38,063 bases of DNA from Acidobacteriota bacterium (GTDB lineage: Bacteria; Acidobacteriota; Vicinamibacteria; Vicinamibacterales; UBA2999): the NCBI GenBank assembly GCA_016213695.1, contig JACQZV010000175.1, forward strand, positions 1 to 38,063, given 5' to 3'. The position numbers and the translations under genes were made by a program. Of the stretch, positions 10,411 to 36,341 are shown piece after piece; position 1 is the first letter of the stretch; each line of letters opens with the position of its first letter. The notes below the pieces were generated by a model. That model did no database searches. It saw nothing but the letters and a program-made list of their open reading frames with translations, and had not been told where the DNA came from.

Positions 10411-11457
10411 ATGACACGATTGCCCGCGTTCCTGTGTGCCGCCGCGCTGCTCGTCGCCGGGTCCGCCTTCGCGCAGCAGAAGGCGACGATTACCGGTGTT
10501 CCCGACATTCCGTTCACGTCCGTTCCGAACTTCCTGAAGCTGCCCGCCGGGGAGTATCTGGGCGAATCGGTGGCCGTGGCCACCGACTCGAAGGGCAACA
10601 CGTACGTGTTTCACCGGCGCGACACGACGCGGCTGTTCCAGTTCGACCGGAACGGCACCTTCGTCAGGGAAATCGGCAAGGGCTATTACGGCTTCGAATT
10701 CGCCCACTCGGTCCGCGTGGACAAGGACGACAACATCTGGACGGTGGACGAGGGAACCAATATGGTCACCAAGTTCAGCTCCGAGGGCCGGGTGCTGATG
10801 GTGCTGGGGCGCCGGCCGGCGGCCGTTGACGGCCCGGTTCTGTTCCCGGTCGGCCCGAACCCGCCGGCACAGAAGTACATCTTCTGCCGCCCGACCGACG
10901 TGGGGTGGGACCCGCAGGGCAACATCTTCGTCTCCGACGGCTACTGCAACAATCGCATCGTCAAGTACGACAAGAACGGCCGCTTCCTCGCGCAGGCCGG
11001 CAGCGAAACGGCGGGCAAGGGGCTGGGCGAATCCAACCTGCCGCACGGCATGCAGGTGGACGAGCGCGGCAATGTGTGGGTGGCCGATCGGACCAACTTC
11101 CGGTATCAGGTCCTCGACAACAATCTCAAGCCGATCAGGGAGATCACCAACCTCGGCGTCGGCTGGACGATCTGCATCTCGCCGGGACCGCACCAGTACG
11201 TCTTCCACTCCAACTCGAACCCGAACGGCAATCCGCCCGGGTCGTGGGACATCACCGGCGAGATCTACAAGACGGAGCTGGACGGCACCGTCATCGGCAA
11301 GTTCGGCAAGCCCGGCAAGGTCGCGCCCGGATTCCAGGTGGTCCACATGATGGACTGCCGCAATCCGAATGAGATCGTGCTCGGCGAAATCGAATCGTGG
11401 CGCGTGCAGAAATTCATCCTGCAGTCGGCGCCGGCATCACGTACCGCGGCGCGTTGA
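10411..11457 (+). CDS. Exported NHL beta-propeller with complete PAL-type active site (peptidyl-alpha-hydroxyglycine amidating lyase-like)
   Basis: 348 aa from the ATG at 10411, chosen because GAGGAG lies 4 bp upstream; the track start (GTG 10399) precedes that site. A signal peptide ends near AFAQQ. The six-bladed propeller has repeated DxxGNxxVxD strands. Comparing from memory with rat PAL, each key residue has a counterpart: Arg69/70 (HRRD), zinc-type His99 (FAHSVRV), Tyr178 (SDGYCNNRI), His212 (LPHGMQV), Arg227 (ADRTN) and His312 (VVHMMDC). The stretches FCRPTDV and DGYCNNRIV are strikingly PAL-like. In animals PAL cleaves alpha-hydroxyglycine peptides to amides and glyoxylate; the bacterial substrate is unknown. 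It is followed by a tandem paralogue 28 bp downstream that lacks these residues. Confidence 0.85.
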   Translation: MTRLPAFLCAAALLVAGSAFAQQKATITGVPDIPFTSVPNFLKLPAGEYLGESVAVATDSKGNTYVFHRRDTTRLFQFDRNGTFVREIGKGYYGFEFAHSVRVDKDDNIWTVDEGTNMVTKFSSEGRVLMVLGRRPAAVDGPVLFPVGPNPPAQKYIFCRPTDVGWDPQGNIFVSDGYCNNRIVKYDKNGRFLAQAGSETAGKGLGESNLPHGMQVDERGNVWVADRTNFRYQVLDNNLKPIREITNLGVGWTICISPGPHQYVFHSNSNPNGNPPGSWDITGEIYKTELDGTVIGKFGKPGKVAPGFQVVHMMDCRNPNEIVLGEIESWRVQKFILQSAPASRTAAR

Positions 11458-11485: not shown

Positions 11486-12550
11486 ATGAAACCGTTCGCA
11501 CACGCACTCGCGGCCGCCATCGTCGTGGCGGCGATTCCCGCCTCGGCCCAGAACACCGCGCCGACGATGAACTTCGATTCCTCGCCCAATGTGCTGACGC
11601 TGCCCGCCGATGTGTATCTCGGCGAAGTCGGCGGCGTGGCGACGAACTCGCGCGGCGATATCTTCGTCTACACGCGCACCGGCCATCCGACGATGTCGAT
11701 GGCGACACCGCGTCCGTTCGCACATGGCGGATCGCGGCTCTTCCAGTTCGATCGCAACGGGCGCTTTACCCGCGAGATCGGTCAGGGGCTGTACGGCTTC
11801 CTCTTCGCGGCCCAGGTGCGCGTCGACTCCGAGGACAACATCTGGGTCGTCGATGAGATGTCCGGCATGGTCATCAAGTTCGATTCGCAGGGCCGTGTCG
11901 CGTTCCTTCTGGGACGAAAGCCGGAAGCCCTGCAGAACCCGCCGCGCCCGGCGGCCGGCGGCGGTGAGGGCGGTGGCGGCGGCAGAGGAGGCCCGCCCGG
12001 TGCCGGTGCGAATCAGGATGTCTTCAACCGTCCGACCGACGTGGCGTGGGACGCCCAGGGCAACGTGTTTGTCGCCGACGGCCGCGGCAACGCGCGCGTC
12101 GCCAAGTTCAGCAAGGACGGCGTGTTCGTCAAGTCGTGGGGCCAGAAAGGCGCCACGCCGGGACAGTTCGGCAGCGTCGACAGCATTGCCGTCGATGCGC
12201 AGGGCAATGTCTACGCGGCCGACGGCGGGAACGGGCGCATCCAGGTGTTCGACAACAACGGCGCCTTCAAGACCGAGATCCGGAATGTCGGCAACGCGCA
12301 GGCGATCTGCATCACGCCGGGTCCGAACCAGGTCATGTATGTGTCGAATTCCAACCCCCCGAACGATCTCGATACGGCCGGGGAGATCTACAAGATGCGC
12401 CTCGACGGGACGATGATGGGAAAGTTCGGCCGGGCCGGGAAGCTCCTCAAGGAGTTCGGCAGCGTCAGCGCCATCGATTGCCGGAGCGAGAACACGCTCT
12501 ACGTGGGCGAGGTCGGCAATCTCAGGGTCCAGAAACTCGCGATCCGCTAG
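11486..12550 (+). CDS. Exported NHL beta-propeller, degenerate tandem paralogue of the PAL-like gene
   Basis: 354 aa from ATG 11486 (MKPF), with AGGAG about 7 bp upstream and a clean signal peptide ending ASAQN; ATG 11471 is an alternative. It aligns along its length with the preceding gene (LFQFDRNG, EIGxGxYGF, RPTDVxWDxQGN, DxxGEIYKxxLDGT), but the positions of PAL-type residues are replaced: the first His is Ala109 in FAAQVRV, Tyr becomes Arg200 in ADGRGN, the second His becomes Asp232, the Arg becomes Gly247, and the last His becomes Ser328. A Gly-rich insertion sits at about residues 158-174. It is probably a binding or scaffold propeller rather than a lyase. Confidence 0.85.
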   Translation: MKPFAHALAAAIVVAAIPASAQNTAPTMNFDSSPNVLTLPADVYLGEVGGVATNSRGDIFVYTRTGHPTMSMATPRPFAHGGSRLFQFDRNGRFTREIGQGLYGFLFAAQVRVDSEDNIWVVDEMSGMVIKFDSQGRVAFLLGRKPEALQNPPRPAAGGGEGGGGGRGGPPGAGANQDVFNRPTDVAWDAQGNVFVADGRGNARVAKFSKDGVFVKSWGQKGATPGQFGSVDSIAVDAQGNVYAADGGNGRIQVFDNNGAFKTEIRNVGNAQAICITPGPNQVMYVSNSNPPNDLDTAGEIYKMRLDGTMMGKFGRAGKLLKEFGSVSAIDCRSENTLYVGEVGNLRVQKLAIR

Positions 12551-13053: not shown

Positions 13054-13491
13054 ATGAACCGCCAATTCTTCGGGAGCGTACTCGCCGGAGTGGGTCTGGC
13101 TGCGGCCGCGGTGGGGCCTGCAGCCGCCCACCATTCGTTCGGCGCCGAATACGATGGGCAGAAGGTCGTCACGCTGACCGGCGTCGTGACGAAGGTGGAG
13201 TGGACCAATCCGCACTGCCACTTCTACATCGACGTGACCGACGAGAAGGGCGGCGTGGTCAACTGGAAGTTCGAGGGGTACGGCATCGGCCCGCTGTACC
13301 GGAACGGCTGGAAGAGAGACGTGACGATCAAGCCGGGCGACCGGGTGACCGCCACGGGCTATCGCGCCCGCGACGGCGGTCCGTGGGCCCATTCGCGCGA
13401 GGTCATTGTCGCCGGGGGGCAGAAGATGCTCTTCGGCCCGCCGCCGGGCACCGGCGACGGCGGCGCGATCCCGGCTGTCGAGGTGCGCTGA
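13054..13491 (+). CDS. DUF6152-like exported protein, copy 1 (mature N-terminus His-His)
   Basis: 145 aa. A signal peptide ends in GPAAA and the AxA rule puts cleavage directly before HHSFGAEYD, so the mature protein should begin His1-His2-Ser3. A small beta-rich domain follows with VTLTGVVTKVEW, TNPHCHFYIDV and IKPGDRVTATGY, a pattern that resembles an OB-like barrel. The His-His start and the NPH motif recur in the copies at 26147 and 35058. The function is not described to my knowledge. The position between a VOC gene and a PDLTGxW gene, with a 1-nt stop/start overlap (TGATG) to the latter, indicates tight co-translation. Confidence 0.85.
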   Translation: MNRQFFGSVLAGVGLAAAAVGPAAAHHSFGAEYDGQKVVTLTGVVTKVEWTNPHCHFYIDVTDEKGGVVNWKFEGYGIGPLYRNGWKRDVTIKPGDRVTATGYRARDGGPWAHSREVIVAGGQKMLFGPPPGTGDGGAIPAVEVR

Positions 13492-14306
13492 TGCGCCGCC
13501 CGCGCCTCGCCCTTGTCTGTGCGATGGTGCTCGGTGCCGTCCCCGCACTCGCCCAGTCGCGCGCGGTTCCGCGGACGCCCGACGGCAAGCCGGATCTGAC
13601 CGGCGTGTGGCAGGCGGGCAACACTCAGCGCGGCACCTGGCAGGAGGCCAACGGCGGAAGCGGACTCGGCGGCTCGGGGCTCAACGAGAACGCGCCGCGG
13701 GTGCAGTCGTCCAGCGATCGACCCGCCGGCGCCGAACCGGCCCCCTATCAGCCGTGGGCGGCACAGAAGGTGCTCGAAGCGTTCAACCGCAGGGGGATCG
13801 ACGACCCGACCGGGTTGTGCCTGCCTCCCGGCGTACCCCGTGTGTCGATGCTGGGCCTGTACCCACAGCAGTTCATCCAGACGCCGAACGCGATGGTCAT
13901 CCTCTACGAGTACGCGAACTCGCACCGGCTGATTCGGCTCAACGCCGCGCATCCCGACGACGTGCTGCCGGGCTATATGGGCGACTCGGTCGGCCGCTGG
14001 GAGGGAGACACGCTGGTCGTTGATGTCACGGGGTTCAACGACCGGACGTGGATTGCCGGCGCGGGTACGTTTCACACCGAGGCGCTGCACGTCGTCGAGC
14101 GCTACACGCGGGTGGACGCGGATCAGATCAATTACGAGGCGAGGGTCGAAGACCCGAACGTGCTGACCAGGCCCTGGGTCCTGCGCACGACGATGATGCG
14201 GCGCGAGGGCACGCGCATCGAGGAGAACATCTGCGTCGAAAACAACATCGACGTGGACCGCTACGAAAAACTGCTGAAAGAAGGGGTCGACTTCACCCGG
14301 CACTGA
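13491..14306 (+). CDS. PDLTGxW-family exported protein, copy 1
   Basis: 271 aa with a signal peptide ending ALAQS. Right after it comes RTPDGKPDLTGVW, the family hallmark. Later landmarks are CLPPGVPR, the IQTPNAMVILYEY strand, GDSVGRWEGDTLVVDVTGFND and VEDPNVLTRPW. These segments recur in the proteins at 24258 (N-terminal half), 26551 (partly) and 35505. I know such proteins as hypothetical in acidobacterial genomes and cannot name an activity; the strand-rich pattern suggests a beta-barrel. The start overlaps the DUF6152-like stop. The ORF in the track that begins at 13200 is an upstream read-through. Its 3' end overlaps the convergent reductase by 14 bp. Confidence 0.85.
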   Translation: MRRPRLALVCAMVLGAVPALAQSRAVPRTPDGKPDLTGVWQAGNTQRGTWQEANGGSGLGGSGLNENAPRVQSSSDRPAGAEPAPYQPWAAQKVLEAFNRRGIDDPTGLCLPPGVPRVSMLGLYPQQFIQTPNAMVILYEYANSHRLIRLNAAHPDDVLPGYMGDSVGRWEGDTLVVDVTGFNDRTWIAGAGTFHTEALHVVERYTRVDADQINYEARVEDPNVLTRPWVLRTTMMRREGTRIEENICVENNIDVDRYEKLLKEGVDFTRH

Positions 14307-22425: not shown

Positions 22426-24111
22426 TCAGGGCGCCAGCGGCTCGATATGGATCAGCGTGTTGCCGTGTTGATTGCCCAGCCAGAAGCTCGAGAGCGCGCC
22501 GGATTTCTGCACCTCGACGTGGCGGACGTTCGTTTCGTGCGGGAGCAGGTACTCGGTGAACTCGCCGGTCTGGACGTTCAGCCGCAGGGCCAGGTCGTTG
22601 TCCATCCCCGCCGTCCATGCATACGTCCGGTCGTCAAATTGCGCGTCGTACGGCCGCGTCCACGGCGTGGGGGCGGTCCATTCGGTAATCTTCTCCGTCT
22701 TCGGGTCGAACATCGCCAGACGGTTGCCATGGAAGACGCCGCACCAGAGGCGGTCCTGCGCGTCGATGTGACCGCGGCGGCAGCCCGCGCCCTTGGTGGG
22801 GAAGTCGTACCAGACGGTCTGGAGCGTCTTGCCGTCGGTCTTCCAGAGCTTGTCGTTGGTCATCTGCATCCCGTAGGAGTTGTTCTTCGAGTCGGCCACG
22901 ACGTCGTAGGCGCGCGCCGAGGGACTGCCAGCCGGATAGGTGACGCGCGTCCACGTATTGGTGGCGAGGTCGATGTGCCACGTCCCGCCCGCCTCGCCGG
23001 TATCGAAGGCCACGTTGGCCCAGAGTTTCCCGTCCAGATGCTGGAACGCGGGGTCCACCATCGTCAGGTGGGCGTCGCCGAAGCTCGATTCCTCGAGCGG
23101 CGACCTGAACGTCTCGAGCTTCCCGGTCTTCGGGTCGAGCCTGGCGATCTGCATCTGCGACATGTTGCCGTAGTAGATCCGGCCCTGGCGGTCGATGTCG
23201 ATCTGCAGGCCGCCCTGCGCAATCTGGCCGAGGCGATTCTGCGGAACGGTGTACTCGGTCACCTTGCCGGTCTTCGGATCGAGCTTCCCGAAGAACTGCG
23301 AATTGAAGTCCGAATACCAGACGTTGCCCTGCGCGTCGAAGACCGTGTCGTGCGGCGAGGCATCCGGGCGCGGGAGCTCGTACACGGTGTAGATGACCTG
23401 CGTCGCCTTCCCGTGCGGCCGCGGCAACGTCGTGAGCGGGAAGTCGAACGAGTCCCTCGCGCTCAGGTTGACCGAGGCGAGATACGTGGCGAACGCGCTC
23501 GGCGCGGACGGCGGCGCGGCGCGTATCGGCCCTTCGATCGGCCGCACCCAGGGATGGAGCGGCGACGAGTTGTTGGTGTGCCTCGCCATCCGCTGAATCA
23601 CCGGCATCCACTCCTCGGCGGTAAAGCGGGAGAACAGGACGCGCTGCAGCGTGTGGCAGTTGACGCAGCCGCCGAGCCCCGTTTTCTGCACCGGCGTGCC
23701 GGGGGCGCTCAGGATCAGCTCGGCGTTCGACATCTGCATGGCGAGCGCCGAGGCGCGCGTCACCTTGTCGAGCGGCAGGTCGAGCCGGGCCGGCTGCGCG
23801 GTCACCTCGACCGACGTGCCCCGCAGCTCGTAGCCGACCGCCCGGACGGTCACCGCGTAGCGGCCCGGCTCCATGCGGTCGCGCGGGAAGCGGTACTCGC
23901 CGCGGGCATCGCTGACCACCCAGGTTGCCACCGTCGAGCCGGCTTTCTTCGCGCCCACGAGCACGCCTTCCATGGCGCCTTCGACCGGCGAGGTGACCGT
24001 GCCCGACAGCGCCGCGTCGGACGGGGTGTCGGGTGGTACGCGCCCGATGACCGTCGTGTCTGCCACGGCCAGTCCCACCACGATGGCCGCGAGAAGTGTC
24101 GCCTTACGCAT
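22426..24111 (-). CDS. Exported carboxypeptidase-regulatory/cytochrome c/Vgb-like propeller fusion
   Basis: 561 aa. A signal-like start is followed by a carboxypeptidase-regulatory-like beta domain (residues 35-115: GTVTSPVEGAMEGVLVGAKK, GEYRFP, GRYAVTVRAVGYE), a single haem motif CVNCH (149-153) in a minimal cytochrome c-like segment, and a streptogramin-lyase-like propeller (about 230-561) with DPKTGKxxxY repeats and PHDTVFDAQGNVWYSD. It probably works in the periplasm as an electron-transfer or redox-linked lyase/sensor protein. It shares this architecture with the protein at 31900-34071. AGAGGAG precedes the ATG. The gene is divergent from the MBL-fusion operon (146 bp between starts). 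Confidence 0.85.
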   Translation of the reverse strand: MRKATLLAAIVVGLAVADTTVIGRVPPDTPSDAALSGTVTSPVEGAMEGVLVGAKKAGSTVATWVVSDARGEYRFPRDRMEPGRYAVTVRAVGYELRGTSVEVTAQPARLDLPLDKVTRASALAMQMSNAELILSAPGTPVQKTGLGGCVNCHTLQRVLFSRFTAEEWMPVIQRMARHTNNSSPLHPWVRPIEGPIRAAPPSAPSAFATYLASVNLSARDSFDFPLTTLPRPHGKATQVIYTVYELPRPDASPHDTVFDAQGNVWYSDFNSQFFGKLDPKTGKVTEYTVPQNRLGQIAQGGLQIDIDRQGRIYYGNMSQMQIARLDPKTGKLETFRSPLEESSFGDAHLTMVDPAFQHLDGKLWANVAFDTGEAGGTWHIDLATNTWTRVTYPAGSPSARAYDVVADSKNNSYGMQMTNDKLWKTDGKTLQTVWYDFPTKGAGCRRGHIDAQDRLWCGVFHGNRLAMFDPKTEKITEWTAPTPWTRPYDAQFDDRTYAWTAGMDNDLALRLNVQTGEFTEYLLPHETNVRHVEVQKSGALSSFWLGNQHGNTLIHIEPLAP

Positions 24112-24205: not shown

Positions 24206-24234
24206 TTGACGCCTCGTTCTCGCTACCGTATCGT
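24206..24234 (+). promoter_or_regulatory. Promoter for the seven-gene operon 24258-31891
   Basis: TTGACG, 17-bp spacer, TATCGT; start expected near 24241, 17 nt before the ATG. The same -10 hexamer and spacing, with TTGACC, occurs ahead of the cytochrome/propeller gene at 34071. Confidence 0.55.
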
Positions 24235-24257: not shown

Positions 24258-26150
24258 ATGAATCGACTGAAGGTCGCGGGTCTCCTGATAGCACTGGCGT
24301 CAGCGGCGTCGCTGCCGACGCGCGCGCAGGAGAACTCGCCGCCCGACCTGACCGGGACGTGGCGGTGGCTCCCGTACGAAGACGAGCGCGACCGCACGCC
24401 GGGCGCCTATCCGGGCGACTACCGCGGCCTGCCCCTGAACGACGCGGCGCGGATGCGCGCCGACACCTACGACGAAGAGGTCAACGCCACCTCGCAGCTC
24501 CTGCAGTGCCGCCCGCGCAGCCCGGCGTACCAGGCGAAGGGACTCGATCCGGCGCGGATCGACCAGGTGGTCGATCCGATCAGCCGTCAGATCGTCGCGC
24601 TGCGCATCGGCTACGAGAAGACACCGGGCGATCGGATGGTCTGGCTCGACGGCCGTCCGCACCCGTCGCCGTACGCGCTGCACTCGTGGGACGGCTTCTC
24701 GACCGGCCGCTTCGTCGGGGACACGCTGGAGATCACGACGACGCACATGAAGGAGAGCTACGCGCGCCGCAACGGCGTGCCCGCCAGCTTTCGCGCGACG
24801 GTCGTGGAGCACGTCTCGCTCGAGGAGCCGTTTCTCGAGTGGACGTTCACGGTCATCGATCCCGACTATCTGACCGAGCCGCTCGTCCGCAGCGCCACGT
24901 ACGTGCGCGCGCCGACGCTGCAGCTGCCGCCGTACCCGTGTCAGCCCGAGGCGTACCAGCCCGGCGAGAAGTATCGGGTGCCGCACTACCTCGTCGGCGA
25001 CAATCCGTACCTCACCGAATCGGCCGTCAAGTACCGGATGCCGCAGGAGGGGACGCGCGGCGGCGCCGAGACGCTCTATCCCGAGTGGCGGGCGAAGGGC
25101 GCGGCGCTGGCTCCGCCCAAAGAACAGTACGCGTACACGCCGGTGTACGCCGACGCCTCGACGCACGTCGCCGAGCGCGCCGATGCCGAACCGGCGCGCC
25201 CGCCCGCCTACGACAGGGTCGAGACGCTGCACGTGGCCGGCAACGTCTACCTCGTCGCCGGCGCGGGCGGGAACATCACGATTTCCGCAGGGGGCGACGG
25301 CGTGGTGATGGTTGATTCGGGTGCCGCCGCGGCCAGCGACCGCGTGCTCGCGGCGATTCGCCGGATCGCCGACATCCCGCGGCCGCCGGAGCCGCCCGAC
25401 GCCGCGTCGTTGACGGCGAGTCCGTGGCTGGCCTCGCACGCGCCGGCGGAGCCGGCCATCCGCTTTATCATCAACACCAGCGGCAACGCGGATCACGTGG
25501 GCGGCAACCCGGCGATTCGGAAGTCGCCGCTCTTCCGCGTCCTCGGATACCGCGATCCGTCGCTGAGCCTGCAGGTGCTGGCGCACGAGGCGGTGCAGGG
25601 CCGGCTCGCCGAGTCGAGCGCCACCGAGGCGCTCGCGCCGACCGACACGTACTCGTCCGACACGTACACCCTGTACCGCTTCTTCAACAATCAGGCGGTG
25701 CAGCTCTTCCACGCGCCGAACGCGGTCACCGACGGCGACACGATGGTCTGGTTCCGCCGGGCGGATGTGATCGCGGCGGGCGACATCTACAACAGCGACA
25801 TCTATCCGCCGATCGACGTCGGGCGCGGCGGCGGCATCGACGGCACGATCGAGGCGCTCAACCGGCTGATCGAGATGTCGGCGACCGAATTCATGTCCCA
25901 GGGAGGCACGCTCGTCGTGCCGGGCCACGGCTGGATCGGCGACGCCGCCGACGTCGGCACCTACCGCGACATGCTGATCGTCGTCCGCGATCGCGTCCAG
26001 AACCTCGTCGGCCGCGGCATGACGCTGGCCCAGGTCAGAGCCGCCAGGCCGACGCTCGATTTCGACCCGTTGTACGGGCGGCAGCGGGGCGCCGCCGCGC
26101 GCTTCGTCGAGGCGGTGTACCGGAGTCTTGCGGAGAAGAAGAAGTCATGA
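24258..26150 (+). CDS. Fusion of PDLTGxW-type domain with an MBL-fold domain lacking the HxH pair
   Basis: 630 aa. A signal peptide ends TRAQE and is followed at once by PPDLTGTWRW, the start of the PDLTGxW-type domain (to about 240: GRFVGDTLEITTTHMKES, VIDPDYLTEPL). From about residue 325 an MBL fold begins (VETLHVAGNVYLVAGAGGN). The motif that should read HxHxDH reads SGNADH: Ser408 and Asn410 replace two His, while Asp412 and His413 stay. Other ligands look kept (AAGDIYN, VPGHGW). At most one metal site may survive, so activity is doubtful or changed. It is the first gene of a seven-gene operon and its stop overlaps the next start (ATGA). Confidence 0.85.
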   Translation: MNRLKVAGLLIALASAASLPTRAQENSPPDLTGTWRWLPYEDERDRTPGAYPGDYRGLPLNDAARMRADTYDEEVNATSQLLQCRPRSPAYQAKGLDPARIDQVVDPISRQIVALRIGYEKTPGDRMVWLDGRPHPSPYALHSWDGFSTGRFVGDTLEITTTHMKESYARRNGVPASFRATVVEHVSLEEPFLEWTFTVIDPDYLTEPLVRSATYVRAPTLQLPPYPCQPEAYQPGEKYRVPHYLVGDNPYLTESAVKYRMPQEGTRGGAETLYPEWRAKGAALAPPKEQYAYTPVYADASTHVAERADAEPARPPAYDRVETLHVAGNVYLVAGAGGNITISAGGDGVVMVDSGAAAASDRVLAAIRRIADIPRPPEPPDAASLTASPWLASHAPAEPAIRFIINTSGNADHVGGNPAIRKSPLFRVLGYRDPSLSLQVLAHEAVQGRLAESSATEALAPTDTYSSDTYTLYRFFNNQAVQLFHAPNAVTDGDTMVWFRRADVIAAGDIYNSDIYPPIDVGRGGGIDGTIEALNRLIEMSATEFMSQGGTLVVPGHGWIGDAADVGTYRDMLIVVRDRVQNLVGRGMTLAQVRAARPTLDFDPLYGRQRGAAARFVEAVYRSLAEKKKS

Positions 26151-26548
26151 GCAGACACCTGCGTTTCATCGCCCTGGCGGCCGCCGTCATGCTGTCCGGC
26201 CTCCCGGCGGCGGCGCACCATTCCTTCGGCGGCACCTACAACGTCGACAGGCAGATCACGATCACGGGAACGATCGTGCAGCTCACCCTGCGCGCGCCGC
26301 ATTCGTTCGTCTACGTCGAGGCCCAGGCGGCCGACGGTTCGACCGCGCGCTGGACGGTGGAAGGCGCCTCCGCGCAGCAGTTCGCGCAGCAGGGATTCAG
26401 CAAGGACGCGTTCAAGGTGGGCGATCCGGTCGAGATCGTCGGCAATCCGTCGCGCAGTCCGAACAGCACGCGGGCGCGGCTCATCAGGATCACCCGTACC
26501 AGCGATGGCAAGTCGTGGGGCAGCCGCGCCGGCGAGGCGGTGAACTGA
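26147..26548 (+). CDS. DUF6152-like exported protein, copy 2 (mature N-terminus His-His)
   Basis: 133 aa. The signal peptide ends GLPAAA with predicted cleavage directly before HHSFGGTYN. The domain repeats the copy-1 plan: ITITGTIVQLTL, RAPHSFVYVEA, RWTVEG, FKVGDPVEIVG. The second conserved His is in APH rather than NPH. The start overlaps the MBL-fusion stop by 4 nt (ATGA) and the stop lies 2 nt ahead of the next gene, so translation is coupled on both sides. It sits two genes upstream of the PHM-like copper monooxygenase, which fits a copper-handling role; that role is inference. Confidence 0.85.
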   Translation: MSRHLRFIALAAAVMLSGLPAAAHHSFGGTYNVDRQITITGTIVQLTLRAPHSFVYVEAQAADGSTARWTVEGASAQQFAQQGFSKDAFKVGDPVEIVGNPSRSPNSTRARLIRITRTSDGKSWGSRAGEAVN

Positions 26549-26550
26549 CA

Positions 26551-27450
26551 ATGAGGCGACGGGATCGGGCCGCGCTCTGCGTCCTGGTGACATGCCTCCT
26601 CGCACCGTCGGCCGTCTCCGCGCAGGGCCGCGGCGGGCGCGGGAGCGCGCCGGCCACCGCGCGCGCGACGGCGCCGATCGACCTGACCGGCTACTGGACG
26701 GCCGTGATCACCGAGGACTGGCACGTGCGCATGCGCACGGCGCCGCGGGGCGACTTCGGCGTGGGCGAGCCGGGCGTCATCGAGAACCCGGGCGTCGGGC
26801 TGCTTGGCGTGGGGCCGAACCCGGCGGCGCGATCGAACATTCCCTACAACACCGCCGGCGCGCAGGCGGCCATGGCATGGGATCCCGCGAAGGACGAGGC
26901 CGAGGGGAATGCCTGCAAGGCGTACGGCGCACCCGGGGTCATGCGGCAGCCGACGCGCCTGCACGTCACCTGGCAGGACGACAACACTCTGAAGATCGAC
27001 GCGGACGCCGGCACGCAGACGCGCCTGTTCCGCTTCGGGCCGCCGCAGAATCCCGGCCGGATGGACTACAGCAACGCCACCTACTTTCCGCCCGAACCGC
27101 GCACGCTGGAGCCGCCTGCCGGCACCGAGCCGAGCTGGCAGGGCTACTCGATGGCGGCCTGGACGATTGCAGGTGGCACGGCGGGAGTCGAGCGCGGCGG
27201 CCATCTGAAGGCCGTGACCAGGCGCCTGAAGCCGGGCTACTACTGGAAGAACGGGATGCCGTATACGGGCAGCGCGGTGCTCACCGAGTATTTCCGCACC
27301 ATGGAGCTGCCCGACCGCAGTTGGTGGATCCGGTTCACCCAGATTGTCGAGGACCCCGACTACCTGACCCAGCCGTGGGTGGTCAATTACGCCTTCAGGA
27401 AGCTGCCGGACGGCTCGGCGTGGAATCCGACCCCGTGTACGGCCAGGTAG
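26551..27450 (+). CDS. PDLTGxW-family exported protein, copy 2 (IDLTGYW variant)
   Basis: 299 aa with a signal peptide ending AVSAQ and an Arg/Gly/Ala linker, then PIDLTGYWTAVITEDW. Later segments include RQPTRLHVTWQDDNTLKIDADAG, WQGYSMAAWTIAGG, GYYWKNGMPYTGSAVLTEYF and VEDPDYLTQPWVVNYAFRKL. The last matches VEDPxxLxxPW in copies 1 and 3, so it is a distant relative with a different middle section that lacks GDSVGRWEG. No catalytic motif is recognised. It lies directly between the DUF6152-like gene and the PHM-like gene, 41 bp upstream of the latter. Confidence 0.8.
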   Translation: MRRRDRAALCVLVTCLLAPSAVSAQGRGGRGSAPATARATAPIDLTGYWTAVITEDWHVRMRTAPRGDFGVGEPGVIENPGVGLLGVGPNPAARSNIPYNTAGAQAAMAWDPAKDEAEGNACKAYGAPGVMRQPTRLHVTWQDDNTLKIDADAGTQTRLFRFGPPQNPGRMDYSNATYFPPEPRTLEPPAGTEPSWQGYSMAAWTIAGGTAGVERGGHLKAVTRRLKPGYYWKNGMPYTGSAVLTEYFRTMELPDRSWWIRFTQIVEDPDYLTQPWVVNYAFRKLPDGSAWNPTPCTAR

Positions 27451-27491
27451 TGGCAGAATATCGTCGTTCGCTTTTGCAGGAGGGACACGTC

Positions 27492-28826
27492 ATGCGGTTC
27501 ATCGTTCCCGCGTCACTGGCGCTCGTCGTCGTCGCCGCCACGGTGCCCCTTCAGGCCGGCCAGTCGGCTGCCGCACAGGCGCCCGTCACGTTCGCGAAAG
27601 ACGTCGCGCCGATTCTCCAGAAGAACTGCCAGACGTGCCACCGGCCGGGCAGCATCGCGCCGATGCCGCTGCTGACCTACGACCAGGCGCGCCCCTGGGC
27701 GCGGTCGATCAAGGAGCAGGTCCTGCTGCGGCAGATGCCGCCGTGGTTCATCGACAAGAACGTCGGCGTCCAGCACTTCAGCAACGACCGGTCGCTGACC
27801 GACCGGGAGATCGACACGATCGCGCGGTGGGTCGACGCCGGCGCGCCGCAGGGCAACCCCGCCGACATGCCGCCGCCCCGCCAGTTCGCCGCCAACGAGA
27901 CCTGGCAGATCGGTGAGCCGGACGTCGTCGTGAGCCTTCCGAAAGACCTCATCGTGAAGGCCAAGCAGCCGGATCAGTGGCCCGATATTCTGGTCGATCC
28001 CCAGCTCACCCAGGATCGCTACATCCAGGGCGTGCAGATTATTCCGATCAAAGGCTACCCGGTCATTCACCACATCCGCACCTCCATCGTCGAGCCGACC
28101 GACGCCAGCCGCGGCAGCGGGCAGACCGATGATGTCGACGATCTCGAGCTGGGCGAGCAGGGCGTATTCCTCAACGAGTACGCGCTCGGCAAGGGGGGCG
28201 ACGTCTTCACGGATGGATCGGGCCGGTTGATCAAGGCGGGAACAAAGATCAACTTCCAGCTCCACCTCCACGCCAACGGCAAGGAGGACATGCCGGCCAA
28301 CGTCAAGCTCGGCCTGAAGTTCTATCCGGCCGGCTACGTGCCGAAGCATGTCATTGCGTCCATGACCGTGAGCTCGCCCCAGGTCGACCTCCGGCCGCAC
28401 GCCGACAACGTCCGGTCCGACGGCTACAAGGTGCTCGTGCGCCCGGCCCGGATCCTGTCGTTCCAGCCGCACATGCACAACCGCGGCAAGGCGGAGTGCC
28501 TTGAAGCCATCCTGCCCACGGGCCGCGTCGAGGTGCTCTCGTGCGCGAAGTTCCGGTTCAACTGGCATCTCAACTACGTGTACGACGATGACGCGGCGCC
28601 GCTGCTGCCGGCCGGCACCGTGCTCCACGCGATCATGTGGCACGACAACTCGGCGAAGAATCCGTTCAACAACGATCCCGACGCCCAGATTACCTACGGT
28701 CAGCGGACCGTTGACGAGATGTCGTCGGCGTGGCTGAGCTGGTACTACATGTCGGACGAGGAGTACAAGCAGGAACTGGCGGAGCGTCGGGCGCGTCGCA
28801 GCGCCGTGACGACCTCGTCAAACTGA
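27492..28826 (+). CDS. Exported cytochrome c fused to PHM-like type II copper monooxygenase
   Basis: 444 aa from ATG 27492 (AGGAGGG upstream); the 744-aa ORF is a read-through. A signal peptide is followed by a c-type haem site CQTCH (46-50) with a downstream MPPW segment that may hold the axial Met, then a monooxygenase-like region. Compared from memory with peptidylglycine alpha-hydroxylating monooxygenase, all copper positions have candidates: His193-His194 (VIHHIRT), His258/His260 (LHLHANG), His327 and His329 (FQPHMHNRGK) and Met410 (VDEMSSAW), the last in a context close to the animal enzyme. The fusion suggests electrons come through the haem instead of ascorbate. It should hydroxylate a C-H bond in the periplasm; substrate unknown. 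Confidence 0.88.
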   Translation: MRFIVPASLALVVVAATVPLQAGQSAAAQAPVTFAKDVAPILQKNCQTCHRPGSIAPMPLLTYDQARPWARSIKEQVLLRQMPPWFIDKNVGVQHFSNDRSLTDREIDTIARWVDAGAPQGNPADMPPPRQFAANETWQIGEPDVVVSLPKDLIVKAKQPDQWPDILVDPQLTQDRYIQGVQIIPIKGYPVIHHIRTSIVEPTDASRGSGQTDDVDDLELGEQGVFLNEYALGKGGDVFTDGSGRLIKAGTKINFQLHLHANGKEDMPANVKLGLKFYPAGYVPKHVIASMTVSSPQVDLRPHADNVRSDGYKVLVRPARILSFQPHMHNRGKAECLEAILPTGRVEVLSCAKFRFNWHLNYVYDDDAAPLLPAGTVLHAIMWHDNSAKNPFNNDPDAQITYGQRTVDEMSSAWLSWYYMSDEEYKQELAERRARRSAVTTSSN

Positions 28827-28840
28827 GTGGGAGGCCGGCG

Positions 28841-29656
28841 GTGAAGCGGTTCGTGGTCCTGGCGCTGGCGTGCTGCGCGCTCCTGGCGCCGGCCCTTCGT
28901 GCGCAGGTCGGCCCGCAGTCGTTCGCTCGCGGCCAGGACATCAGTCCGACCTTCGACGGCTGGGAGCGGAACGCGGACGGCACCTTCACGCTCTGGTTCG
29001 GCTACTACAACCGGAACACCGAGGAAGAGATCGACGTCCCGCTCGGTCCGGACAACACGTTCGATCCGGGCGGCGATCGCGGCCAGCCGACACACTTCTA
29101 CCCGTCGCGGAAGTGGTGGGTCTTCAAGACGATCGTGCCCGCCGACTGGCCCGCCGACCGCAGGGCCGTCTGGACGCTGACGACACACGGCAAGACGAAC
29201 CAGGCCAAGGGCTGGCTCCAGCCGGAATGGGAGGTCGACACCGATCTGATCTCCAAGAACGGCGCGCGTGACCCGTCGCTGATGACCAACGGCACCAACG
29301 CGCTCGACCAGGATCACGAGAACCGCCCGCCGGTGATGGCCGGCAGCGCCGCGCAGACGATCGGGGTCTCGGACACGCTGGCCCTCACGGTGACTGCCAC
29401 CGACGATGGACGACCGAAGCCGGTGCCCGATCCGGAGGGCCGCCTGCAGCAGGGCGTGCGCGTGCGCTGGATCGTGTACCGGGGGGCCGGCGCGGTCCGG
29501 TTCGACCCGGACATCATGAGCGGCCGTATCTACGGCAAGCCGGCGACGCTGGCGACCAGGGTGCGCTTTGCGGCCGCCGGCGCCTACCGGCTGCGCGCGA
29601 TTGCGAGCGACGGCCAGGCCTTCTCCACCTACGACGTGGATGTGACGGTCAAATGA
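28841..29656 (+). CDS. Exported protein of unknown function downstream of the PHM-like gene
   Basis: 271 aa from GTG 28841, chosen for GGGAGG upstream and because it opens a clean signal peptide ending LRAQV. The mature part has SFDGW-like text (ISPTFDGWERNADGTFTLWFGYYNRN), EEEIDVPLGPDN, FYPSRKWWVF, then NRPPVMAGSAAQTI leading into an Ig/cadherin-like domain (LALTVTATDDGRP to the C-terminal YDVDVTVK). It resembles hypothetical exported beta proteins of the same genomes. The stop overlaps the flavoprotein start (ATGA), so it is co-translated with it and possibly partners it. Confidence 0.8.
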   Translation: MKRFVVLALACCALLAPALRAQVGPQSFARGQDISPTFDGWERNADGTFTLWFGYYNRNTEEEIDVPLGPDNTFDPGGDRGQPTHFYPSRKWWVFKTIVPADWPADRRAVWTLTTHGKTNQAKGWLQPEWEVDTDLISKNGARDPSLMTNGTNALDQDHENRPPVMAGSAAQTIGVSDTLALTVTATDDGRPKPVPDPEGRLQQGVRVRWIVYRGAGAVRFDPDIMSGRIYGKPATLATRVRFAAAGAYRLRAIASDGQAFSTYDVDVTVK

Positions 29657-31284
29657 ACAGACGCAGGTTTCTGAAGGACGGCGTGCTCGGCGTCGGCGCC
29701 AGCGCGCTGGCGGGCGCCGCGGCGCAGGAGGCGGAGCTCTCGGCTCAGCGCGTCACGAAGTGGGACCGCGTCGCCGACGTGGTCATTGCCGGCGCGGGCG
29801 CCTCGGGGCTGTGCGCCGCGATCATGGCCCGGGACGAGGGTGCGTCGGTGCTCGTGATCGATCAGAACCACGACATCGGCGGGCACGCCATGGTGAGCGG
29901 CGGGCGGATCCCGCTCGGCGGCGGCACGCGCCTGCAGAAGAAGTTCGGCGTCGAGGATTCGGCCGACAAGGTCTATCTGGATCACACGAACGCTCGCAAT
30001 CAGGAGCTCCGGTTCAGCGATCGCGATCTCGTGCGTGTGTGGGCCGACGAGAACGCGCCGACGTTCGATTTCCTGCTGGACAACGGCGTGAAGTTCGACG
30101 AGGTCATGCCGACCCTCGTCAACGAAGGCACGGTACCGCGCCTGTTCCGCACGGTGCCGTACTCCGACGATCTCAACGTCACGATCAACGGCAGTCCGGG
30201 ATCGGGTCTGGTGCGGGCGCTCGAGAAGAGCGCGCGCGCCAAGGGCGTCGAGATTCTCCTCAGCCACCGCCTGACGCGCATCGTCCGCGAGAGCGCGGCG
30301 TCTGGGCGCGTGCAGGGCATCACCGCGGAATTCCAGGGCAAGCCGGTCGCCATCCAGGCGCGCAAGGGCTTCATCATCGCCACCGGCGGCTTCACGAGCA
30401 ACGTGGCGTTCCGGCGGATGTTCGACCCGCGGCTCACCGAGGAGTACCAGGTGGCGGGGGAGCCGTGGAGCAGGCAGCCGGCCGAAGGGGAGATGCTCGC
30501 GATGGCGCTCGGCGCCGCGCTCTGGGGCACGTCGAACGTGGCAAGCGAGCACGGGCGCACGATCACCAAGACGCGCCACATCGGCGCCCGCTACGGATAC
30601 GAGAATCTGAGATGGAACCCCGGCAGCCCGATGTTCAAGCAGGCGGGCGGCTCCGGCCTGACCGTGCGCACCTATCAGGATGTCGTCTGCGTGAACCAGT
30701 TCGGGCGGCGCTTCTGGAACGAGCTGGACGACACCTACGGGTACCTCAACGCGTGCGTCGGTCGCCAGGACGACAGCGAGACGCGCGGCAAGCTGAACGG
30801 CGGCGGTCCGATCTGGGCCGTCTTCGACGCCGACGGGGTCGCGCGCGAGAAGTGGGACCCGAAGCCTCCCAACGTCGATCCGAACGGCTGGTTCTTCACG
30901 GCGGGCACGGTGGCGGAGCTGGCGCGAAAGATTGCCAACCCGTATCAGTCCAAGCCGATGCCGCCGCGCGCCCTCGAAGAGACGGTCGCGAAGTACAACT
31001 CGTATGTCGATGCGGGGAAGGACCCGGAGTTCGGCAGGCCCGGCCTGATGTTCAAGATCCAGAAGCCGCCGTTCTATGCCGCGTGGGCCACGCCCATCCT
31101 CCACGATGCGCTGGCGGGCCTCCGGACCAGCGCGCGCAGCGAGGTGCTCGACATTCGCGGCCAGGTCATTCCCGGCCTGTACGCCTGCGGCGAGTCGGCG
31201 GGCGGTTTTGCGCTGCACGGTCTCCCTCGGGTCACCGTCTTCGGCCGCATTGCCGGGCGCGAGGCGGCCCGTGTCAGGACCTGA
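29653..31284 (+). CDS. Tat-exported FAD-dependent oxidoreductase (fumarate reductase/ketosteroid dehydrogenase-like)
   Basis: 543 aa. The leader MNRRRFLKDG is a strong twin-arginine signal, so a folded FAD-loaded enzyme is exported. The FAD Rossmann motif is GAGASG (47-52) with Asp at the end of the second strand (VLVIDQ). The C-terminal LYACGESAGGFALHGLPRVTVFGRIAGREAA is the second FAD segment typical of the FAD_binding_2 family (fumarate reductase, 3-ketosteroid delta-1-dehydrogenase). It may move electrons between its substrate and the operon's cytochrome. It starts within the preceding stop and overlaps the following gene by 14 bp. Confidence 0.88.
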   Translation: MNRRRFLKDGVLGVGASALAGAAAQEAELSAQRVTKWDRVADVVIAGAGASGLCAAIMARDEGASVLVIDQNHDIGGHAMVSGGRIPLGGGTRLQKKFGVEDSADKVYLDHTNARNQELRFSDRDLVRVWADENAPTFDFLLDNGVKFDEVMPTLVNEGTVPRLFRTVPYSDDLNVTINGSPGSGLVRALEKSARAKGVEILLSHRLTRIVRESAASGRVQGITAEFQGKPVAIQARKGFIIATGGFTSNVAFRRMFDPRLTEEYQVAGEPWSRQPAEGEMLAMALGAALWGTSNVASEHGRTITKTRHIGARYGYENLRWNPGSPMFKQAGGSGLTVRTYQDVVCVNQFGRRFWNELDDTYGYLNACVGRQDDSETRGKLNGGGPIWAVFDADGVAREKWDPKPPNVDPNGWFFTAGTVAELARKIANPYQSKPMPPRALEETVAKYNSYVDAGKDPEFGRPGLMFKIQKPPFYAAWATPILHDALAGLRTSARSEVLDIRGQVIPGLYACGESAGGFALHGLPRVTVFGRIAGREAARVRT

Positions 31285-31891
31285 GCAGACGGCGCCGGAT
31301 CTGCCGCACGACACCAGCCTTGCCGTCTGGGATCTCCCCTCACCCGCGATTGCCGGCCGGCGTGCGACTGTGAAGGCGGGGATCGCGTGCTCGAGCGGCT
31401 GCAATCTGTCGGGCGCGCGGATCGACGTTCACAACGAAACGGGACAACGGACCGGCAGCGGAGAGGCGGGTTCCGCACCGTGGCCGGGTACGACCTCGCT
31501 CTACTGGGTGGAGCTCGACGTTGCCGCGCCCGACATGCCGGGCGAGTGCGCGTGGACGCTTCGGGCGACCGCGTCCGGCCCTCACGCTCCAGCCACGTCG
31601 ATGGTGCGCGTGGTCGTCGCCGCCGCGCCGCAGCATCGCGTGACGATCGCGGTGACGGAAAAAGGGAGCGGCGGTCCGGTGCCGGGCGTCGACGTGCGCG
31701 TGGGGATGTTCAGGGGCGCCACCGGCGAGGCGGGCATCGCGCAGATCGACGTGCCCGCCGGCCGCTTTGACGTCGTCGCCTGCAAGATCGGCTACGAGAC
31801 CCTCTCGAGCACGATCGAGGTCGCGGGAGACATCGCCGTTCATCTGAAGGCTGCCCCGGCATCCGAGCCGGAGCAGCCCTACTGGATGTAG
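31271..31891 (+). CDS. Signal-less beta-rich protein with carboxypeptidase-regulatory-like C-terminus and EQPYWM tail
   Basis: 206 aa from GTG 31271, inside the last 14 bp of the flavoprotein gene. There is no signal peptide. Residues 20-120 look like an Ig-type domain (GRRATVKAGIACSSGC, CAWTLRATASG); residues 125-195 form a carboxypeptidase-regulatory-like domain (HRVTIAVTEKGSGGPVPGVD, GRFDVVACKIGYE). It ends EPEQPYWM. Since its neighbours are exported and the flavoprotein uses Tat, it could travel out as a Tat hitchhiker partner; this is speculative. A relic of a paralogue with the same tail is at 34128-34238. Confidence 0.78.
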   Translation: MSGPEQTAPDLPHDTSLAVWDLPSPAIAGRRATVKAGIACSSGCNLSGARIDVHNETGQRTGSGEAGSAPWPGTTSLYWVELDVAAPDMPGECAWTLRATASGPHAPATSMVRVVVAAAPQHRVTIAVTEKGSGGPVPGVDVRVGMFRGATGEAGIAQIDVPAGRFDVVACKIGYETLSSTIEVAGDIAVHLKAAPASEPEQPYWM

Positions 31892-35057: not shown

Positions 35058-35483
35058 ATGAGCATGCGACGTCCACTGGGTGCGGTGCTGGCTGCCGCGG
35101 CCGGGCTGCTCGCCGGAAGTCCGGCGCTGGCGCACCACAGCGTGCCCGGCACCTTCCACACCGACAAGACCGTCGCCATCAAGGGAACCATCTCGCGGAT
35201 CGACTGGATTAATCCGCACATCTACATTTACGTCGATGTGAAGGACAAGGCGGGCGTCGCGACCACGTGGAAGGTGGAGACGCTGCCGACCAATCACATG
35301 CGGCGCGCCGGAGTGTCGAAGGCGCTCATCATGGACGAGGCCAAGGGCGGAGAGGTGACCGTGTACATGTATCCCGCCATCAAGAACCCCGCGGCCGGCT
35401 TCCTCCTGCGGATCGTGTATCCGGAGGGCCATTTCTACCATCTGTACGGCGAAGAGAGCGAAATCGCCCGCGCGTCCAACTAG
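35058..35483 (+). CDS. DUF6152-like exported protein, copy 3 (mature N-terminus His-His)
   Basis: 141 aa from ATG 35058, with AAGGAG 7 bp upstream; the track's 154-aa version adds 13 residues ahead of that site. The signal peptide ends SPALA with cleavage predicted just before HHSVPGTFH. The domain follows the family plan: VAIKGTISRIDW, INPHIYIYVDV, TTWKVET, and a longer C-terminus with GGEVTVYMYPAIKNP and GHFYHLYG in place of the GDxVxxxG end of copies 1 and 2. It is followed 21 bp later by a PDLTGxW-family gene, as in the other two loci. Confidence 0.85.
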   Translation: MSMRRPLGAVLAAAAGLLAGSPALAHHSVPGTFHTDKTVAIKGTISRIDWINPHIYIYVDVKDKAGVATTWKVETLPTNHMRRAGVSKALIMDEAKGGEVTVYMYPAIKNPAAGFLLRIVYPEGHFYHLYGEESEIARASN

Positions 35484-35504
35484 GCGCGCCTGAAGGGAGT
35501 GTTC

Positions 35505-36341
35505 ATGATGAAGCGGCACCAATCAGGTCTCCTCGTGGCCGCGCTCTGCGCCGCGGTGGCGGTCGCCGCCGGTGCGCTGTACGCGGCGCCTCAGGCCGGA
35601 ACGGCCGCTGCGACCGCGGCTGTCGCCAGGCCGACGCCCCGGACGGCCGACGGACATCCCGATCTGTCGGGCATGTGGTACCGGCGCGTGGCCGGACCCC
35701 TCACCCGGCGCGTCGGAAAGTCGATCGTCCTGGCGCCGCGCGGCGGGGAAGGCGCCGCGGCCCGCATTCCCACCTACAACCCCGGTACGCCGAAGTACAA
35801 GCCGCAGTTCCTGGCCACGGTGAAGGAATTGAAGGACGACCAGATCAATGCCGATCCGTCGTTTCACTGCGGCCCGCCGGGATTGCCCCGGATCGGCGCG
35901 CCGCAGCGCATCGTGCAGACGGCCCGCGAGGTCGTGATCCTGTACGACGACCTCAACGGCAACTACTTCCGCGTGATCCCGACCGACGGCCGGAAGCACC
36001 GCACCGGGGTCGAGCCGTCGTCGCTCGGCGACTCGGTCGGCCGCTGGGAGGGCGAGACGCTCGTCATCGAGGCGACGAACCTGCTCGACGACACCTGGCT
36101 CGGCGACAACGGCCTGCTGCACTCGGCCGATGTCAGGGTGACCGAGCGCCTCACGCGACAGGGCGACACGCTGAAGTGGGAGGCGACGGTCGAGGATCCG
36201 GAGTTCCTCGTGGAGCCGTGGAAGGTCACGCCGCGGACGCTGACGCTGATGGCGAATGCGGAGATCGATGAAGCCGCGTTCTGCGAGGATCGCGGGGTCG
36301 CCGATCGCGCCACGAAGGACTACCACGGCAACGTGCGGTAG
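35505..36341 (+). CDS. PDLTGxW-family exported protein, copy 3
   Basis: 278 aa from ATG 35505 (or 35508, which has slightly better spacing from AAGGGAG). The signal peptide ends near LYAAP. Family landmarks are RTADGHPDLSGMW, FHCGPPGLPR, the VQTAREVVILYDD strand, GDSVGRWEGETLVIEATNLLDDTW and VEDPEFLVEPWKV. These match copy 1 at 13491 in the same order, so the two are clear paralogues. No catalytic motif is known to me; the single Cys of CGPPG and the late FCEDRG may form a disulfide. It converges on the HbpS-like gene, 40 bp away. Confidence 0.85.
   Translation: MMKRHQSGLLVAALCAAVAVAAGALYAAPQAGTAAATAAVARPTPRTADGHPDLSGMWYRRVAGPLTRRVGKSIVLAPRGGEGAAARIPTYNPGTPKYKPQFLATVKELKDDQINADPSFHCGPPGLPRIGAPQRIVQTAREVVILYDDLNGNYFRVIPTDGRKHRTGVEPSSLGDSVGRWEGETLVIEATNLLDDTWLGDNGLLHSADVRVTERLTRQGDTLKWEATVEDPEFLVEPWKVTPRTLTLMANAEIDEAAFCEDRGVADRATKDYHGNVR

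Follow-up and report, generated by a model that had tools for sequence, protein, structure and literature searches.

Seven closely packed genes at positions 24258-31891 of an acidobacterial contig raise the question of whether they encode one dedicated oxidation pathway or an assembly of separable parts. The window, by which we mean the whole stretch of DNA analysed (38,063 nucleotides), spans an entire 38 kb contig of a soil-type Acidobacteriota genome (3.75 Mb in 203 contigs, 90.6% complete). The initial annotation read the operon as a single oxidative system in which a PHM-like copper monooxygenase receives its electrons through haem. PHM and DBM are the textbook animal copper enzymes, which take their electrons from ascorbate. 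The PHM fold is thus already known; the new features are its fusion to a haem domain and a near-obligate Ig-like partner. In our view the locus is probably an operon for periplasmic oxidation chemistry with a mosaic structure of three modules, g1-g2-g3, g4-g5 (a putative haem-copper monooxygenase with an Ig-like subunit), and g6-g7.

Organization of the operon

The genes g1 to g7 lie on the plus strand and either overlap or are at most 41 bp apart, with gaps of -4, 2, 41, 14, -4, and -14 bp in order from g1 to g7, in agreement with the tight packing first described. Only g5 (28841) and g7 (31271) needed a choice of start, and GTG was chosen for both. Most of the products carry export signals, and no terminator was found within the operon on the operon strand. 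A promoter-like site upstream of g1, TTGACG-17-TATCGT (24206..24234, plus strand), is the single plus-strand sigma70-like match across 8.4 kb, as the initial annotation had it, but it scores just 9/12 in a consensus scan and is weak evidence for one promoter. On both strands together, 2 such sites were observed as compared with 0.4 expected by shuffling, and by eye the site before g1 is not conserved in genome G027. The g1-g7 order was seen in this window alone, and G027 contains the same set split by inserted genes. The divergent neighbour of g1 (22426-24111, minus strand) encodes a propeller that resembles Vgb lyase and contains a CVNCH motif, and its counterpart holds the same place in G027 (L065 2358-4040).

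g1-g2-g3 and the DUF6152/PDLTGxW background

g1 (24258..26150, plus strand) encodes an exported protein in which a PDLTGxW domain, reading PDLTGTW, is fused to a metallo-beta-lactamase domain (PF00753, 9e-7), in line with the MBL fusion annotated initially. Where an HxHxDH zinc motif would be expected, g1 reads NTSGNADH (~25400-25500); the first two zinc histidines are lost, a change shared by the G027 orthologue (NTSSNADH), while g1 retains the Asp-His pair of this motif as well as HAP, GD, and PGHG motifs further on. g2 (26147..26548, plus strand), first described as DUF6152-like, is a true exported DUF6152 protein (PF19649, 1.4e-21; 76.8 bits against a cut-off of 27), and g3 (26551..27450, plus strand) is an exported PDLTGxW-family protein without a Pfam family.

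Recurrence of these two families in the window had been taken as part of the case for a special system. Extra copies of each are indeed present, DUF6152 at 13105-13377 and 35112-35384 and PDLTGxW at 13524-14303 and 35499-36338, forming together with g2 and g3 the stretches 13105-14303, 26147-27450, and 35112-36338, but they are genome background. The 3.75 Mb genome contains 60 DUF6152 and about 100 PDLTGxW matches. A PDLTGxW gene lies within 1.5 kb of 47 of the 60 DUF6152 matches, where at most 11% is expected, and in 33 cases it follows on the same strand within this distance. DUF6152 and PDLTGxW thus represent a recurring genome-wide pairing of two exported families, and their presence says little about g4. 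The co-occurrence proposed between the PHM-like gene and these families turned out to be loose, with DUF6152 in 7 and PDLTGxW in 25 g4 neighbourhoods; for comparison, g5 is found in 69 of the 73 neighbourhoods with g4. Since DUF6152 and PDLTGxW genes are spread all over the genome, we rejected them as specific partners of g4.

g6-g7

g6 (29653..31284, plus strand) encodes an FAD_binding_2 flavoprotein (Pfam 9e-41; 140.9 bits against a cut-off of 20.4) of the fumarate/urocanate reductase - ketosteroid dehydrogenase superfamily, with a leader that is Tat-type by eye (MNRRRFLK...). It scores 193.7 bits against flavocytochrome c TIGR01813, below the curated cut-off of 285.45. g7 (31271..31891, plus strand) has a CarboxypepD_reg-like domain (weak Pfam match) and no leader by eye. 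Wherever a strong g7 match has room beside it, g6 adjoins in nearly every case, often without g4. The initial annotation likewise had a Tat flavoprotein with a signal-less partner here. The g4 clade of the window (support 100) has 11 members, of which 5 have g6 within 3.5 kb of g4; several of the rest are truncated at a contig end.

The operon is a mosaic of separable modules

The view that all seven genes serve a single pathway dedicated to one substrate and centred on the copper hydroxylase draws on the tight spacing and overlaps, on the same, though interrupted, set in G027, and on the occurrence of g4-g5-g6-g7 together in L086 and of g6-g4-g5 in L088 and L092. Against it stands the distribution of the parts. 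g1-g2-g3 occur together in the window, G027, G011, G002, and G003, and in the latter two they have none of g4 to g7 alongside. In G011, g1-g2-g3-g6 are contiguous, and no match to a g4 homologue was found in this genome, which is estimated to be 100% complete; the copper enzyme is thus a cassette in the operon rather than its defining core, and g6 need not serve g4. Furthermore, g6-g7 occur without g4 in several genomes, and in G027 the set is interrupted twice, g3 being separated from g4 by three reverse-strand genes and g6 from g7 by an extra DUF6152/PDLTGxW pair. We therefore regard a single seven-gene pathway as unlikely, albeit the alternative that survives best. What stands of the initial reading is a g4 with haem and a PHM fold next to a Tat-type flavoprotein among exported products; what does not is the single system, in place of which we find three separable modules. 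Random association across related genomes had been named as evidence against such a system. The association is non-random (L086, L088, L092, and G027), yet the parts are separable (G011, G002, and G003), and the seven genes do not make up a fixed set.

g4 combines a c-type cytochrome with a PHM-like dicopper domain

g4 (27492..28826, plus strand) encodes an exported protein with a CxxCH cytochrome c domain followed by a domain resembling the PHM/DBH-fold dicopper monooxygenases. In an alignment of 64 homologues (31-70% identity), the haem motif C46-Q-T-C49-H50 (27627..27641, plus strand) is invariant in C46, C49, and H50, as are the distal Met candidates M58 and M82, which is the pattern of a c-type cytochrome. 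A cytochrome c family (Cytochrome_CBB3, E up to 0.01) was matched by 53 of the 64 homologues, the window g4 itself giving a weak cytochrome c match below the Pfam cut-off.

The second domain was recognized by its fold. Neither PF01082 nor PF03712 matched g4 above the cut-off in Pfam, only 3 of the 64 homologues matched Cu2_monoox_C (PF03712; best E 0.001), and a profile search against PDB sequences gave nothing useful, so that the question was settled by the fold search. With the AlphaFold model of g4 (pLDDT 87), PHM and DBH structures took all of the first 31 places among the Foldseek matches in PDB (E 1.8e-12 to 1.4e-7, probability 1.0). The TM-score against PHM, normalised to PHM, is moderate at about 0.52-0.66, which suggests that the domain packing may differ from that of PHM. 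Six further residues, all on the plus strand and all invariant in the same 64 sequences, correspond to the PHM copper ligands, which we take to be H107, H108, and H172 for CuH and H242, H244, and M314 for CuM. The predicted equivalents in g4 are H193-H194 (28068..28073) for H107-H108, H258 (28263..28265) for H172, H327-M-H329 (28470..28478) for H242/H244, and M410 of a DEM motif (28719..28721) for M314. From H194 onward, the spacing is 64, 69, 2, and 81 residues, as compared with presumably 64, 70, 2, and 70 in rat PHM; H258 thus stands 64 residues from the histidine pair, as in PHM. In residue type, order, and approximate spacing, the six therefore agree with the CuH and CuM sets of PHM. The cytochrome c-PHM-like assignment of the initial annotation is borne out by the haem motif, the fold, and the full conserved ligand set, and copper binding by g4 would be expected from these ligands.

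The PHM residues that anchor the peptide carboxylate, which we take to be R240, N316, and Y318 (at -2 relative to H242 and at +2 and +4 relative to M314), read Q325, S412, and W414 in g4. This replacement makes a glycine-extended peptide substrate improbable and peptide amidation unlikely. A g4 paralogue in the window's own genome (L083 7693-9711, C19) lies behind a g4-g5 pair and has lost the copper histidines, and is perhaps a non-catalytic subunit.

g5 is a near-obligate partner of g4

g5 (28841..29656, plus strand) encodes an exported protein with two Ig/PKD-like beta domains, both Ig-like in the predicted model (pLDDT 91.7). It matched no family in Pfam or NCBIfam, although PKD was matched by 11 of 64 g5 homologues. 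No strongly conserved His, Cys, or Met was found among the homologues, which argues that g5 is not a redox protein.

Among 137 non-redundant g4 loci with flanks long enough to show the neighbours, selected inside Acidobacteriota, 133 have an adjacent g5 on the same strand (125 downstream and 8 upstream) and 4 lack it. In the reverse direction, all 19 loci picked by g5 alone, mostly ones whose g4 had not been listed before, have an adjoining g4, and so do all of ten further g5-picked loci, of which eight come from other families of the phylum; among these ten, either gene may lead, and divergent and convergent arrangements also occur. No g5-like gene without g4 was found in these 29 g5-picked acidobacterial loci. 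Natural fusions exist in opposite orders (L070, g4-g5; L158, g5-g4); both carry just one leader, and they are far apart in the g4 tree. Thus, g4-g5 is a near-obligate pair in Acidobacteriota, and the rearranged and fused cases suggest that inheritance of close linkage is not the whole reason for the pairing. The exported beta protein of the initial annotation does have two Ig-like beta domains, but it had been treated as one unknown among several, whereas it is the near-obligate partner of g4.

Genome G100 contains 24 stretches matching g5, and several others contain 15 or more. In a scan of genome contigs, the best 80 matches listed were nearly all titled Acidobacteriota, and the few under other phylum names look misnamed. 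In another family of the phylum (f55; L254, L255, and L256), a short g5 of roughly 160-190 aa precedes g4 and seemingly has one Ig-like domain.

The purely Ig-like nature of g5, the great paralogue expansion, which could reflect surface functions, and the existence of paralogues without ligands such as L083 7693-9711 would also fit a non-enzymatic g4-g5 that reuses the PHM fold as a copper/haem sensor, carrier, or adhesin. However, both copper sites are invariant over the 64 sequences, including the Met of the oxygen-activating CuM. As a mere binder would not need such conservation of both sites, the invariance counts against such a role, and we consider it improbable.

A PAL-like lyase is not a general companion of g4

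The window also contains an NHL-propeller gene (10420-11454, plus strand) whose product has PAL, the lyase of PAM, as its best-scoring relative in PDB (3fvz, 7.8e-24) and retains FCxPTDV, SDGYCNxR, and the aligned histidines; its paralogue (11486-12547) has DGRGNAR in place of SDGYCNxR. At locus L082 (G086:C35), g4-g5 is immediately followed by a PAL-like gene in the same orientation. The least probable of the readings is that g4 and such a lyase form a bacterial PAM equivalent, hydroxylating next to nitrogen and then cleaving, because the motif-retaining NHL gene of the window, its relative straight after g4-g5 in G086, and PAL-like genes near g4-g5 in L070, L093, and L260 have to be set against a separation of 16 kb from g4 in the window, where PAM has PHM and PAL in one polypeptide, against a close PAL-like gene at only ~4 of roughly 170 g4-g5 loci (weak enrichment at most), against nine relatives with a PAL-like gene and no g4, and against the missing peptide anchors. 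With about four of roughly 170 loci, a PAL-like gene was rejected as a rule for g4.

Proposed mechanism

Returning to the mosaic operon, which we favour on the basis of the predicted fold, the conserved ligands, the near-obligate pairing, the fusions, and the mosaic structure itself, g4 would be a copper C-H monooxygenase of PHM/DBM architecture, its monooxygenase activity being suggested by the fold and ligands. Its c-type haem at the N terminus most likely takes the place of the one-electron donor, which in animals is ascorbate, or channels it to the two coppers. Delivery of electrons to these coppers by haem, as first proposed, is plausible, and the flow within g4 would run from haem to copper. 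g5 would be a non-catalytic two-domain Ig-like subunit, and the pairing and fusions suggest that it physically binds g4; it probably presents substrate, docks g4 to a surface, or stabilises g4. The exported g6, together with g7, may act in the same pathway, oxidising or reducing the same substrate or its hydroxylated product, and g7, given its missing leader, is perhaps carried out through Tat with g6.

In the open-access papers searched, we found no relevant link between Acidobacteriota and DUF6152, ascorbate-dependent monooxygenase, or peptidylglycine hydroxylation, and within this literature the claim of an undescribed system holds. It is tempting to speculate, though we would put the chance at somewhat less than even, that the g4-g5 pairs of Acidobacteriota make up a large but unrecognised class of haem-wired copper C-H hydroxylases built from two proteins, where a fused cytochrome feeds the coppers instead of ascorbate, an Ig-like subunit sets the substrate, and some twenty paralogous pairs can be present in a single genome, like P450s in other bacteria. 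If so, a bacterial PHM branch that combines an integral cytochrome with a partner protein of its own would represent another way to feed two coppers, and g4-g5 would offer a two-gene system for studying how electrons reach the CuM site. Considering that some Acidobacteriota have around twenty g4-g5 pairs and that we found no paper on them, the pairs could be an overlooked oxidative capacity in organic-matter turnover.

Comparison with known systems

g2 is a member of DUF6152 (PF19649), a family that in this genome is tied to PDLTGxW proteins throughout. g6 shares its superfamily with urocanate reductase, flavocytochrome c3, and the 3-ketosteroid dehydrogenases (FAD_binding_2), from which it differs in that it stays below the curated cut-offs of all specific NCBIfam families listed and is paired with g7. 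g4 resembles the PHM half of PAM in its two-domain beta fold, its export, and the composition, order, and approximate spacing of its CuH (H,H,H) and CuM (H,H,M) ligands, albeit with about 13% identity in the structural alignment. In contrast to PHM, the bacterial g4 adds an N-terminal c-type haem domain and a near-obligate Ig-like partner, has the peptide anchors replaced, and carries no lyase domain in the same protein. Dopamine beta-hydroxylase (PDB 4zel), to our knowledge without a g5-like partner, is similar to g4 in that PHM-type copper domains are combined with an extra N-terminal domain, which is DOMON in the former and a CxxCH cytochrome in the latter.
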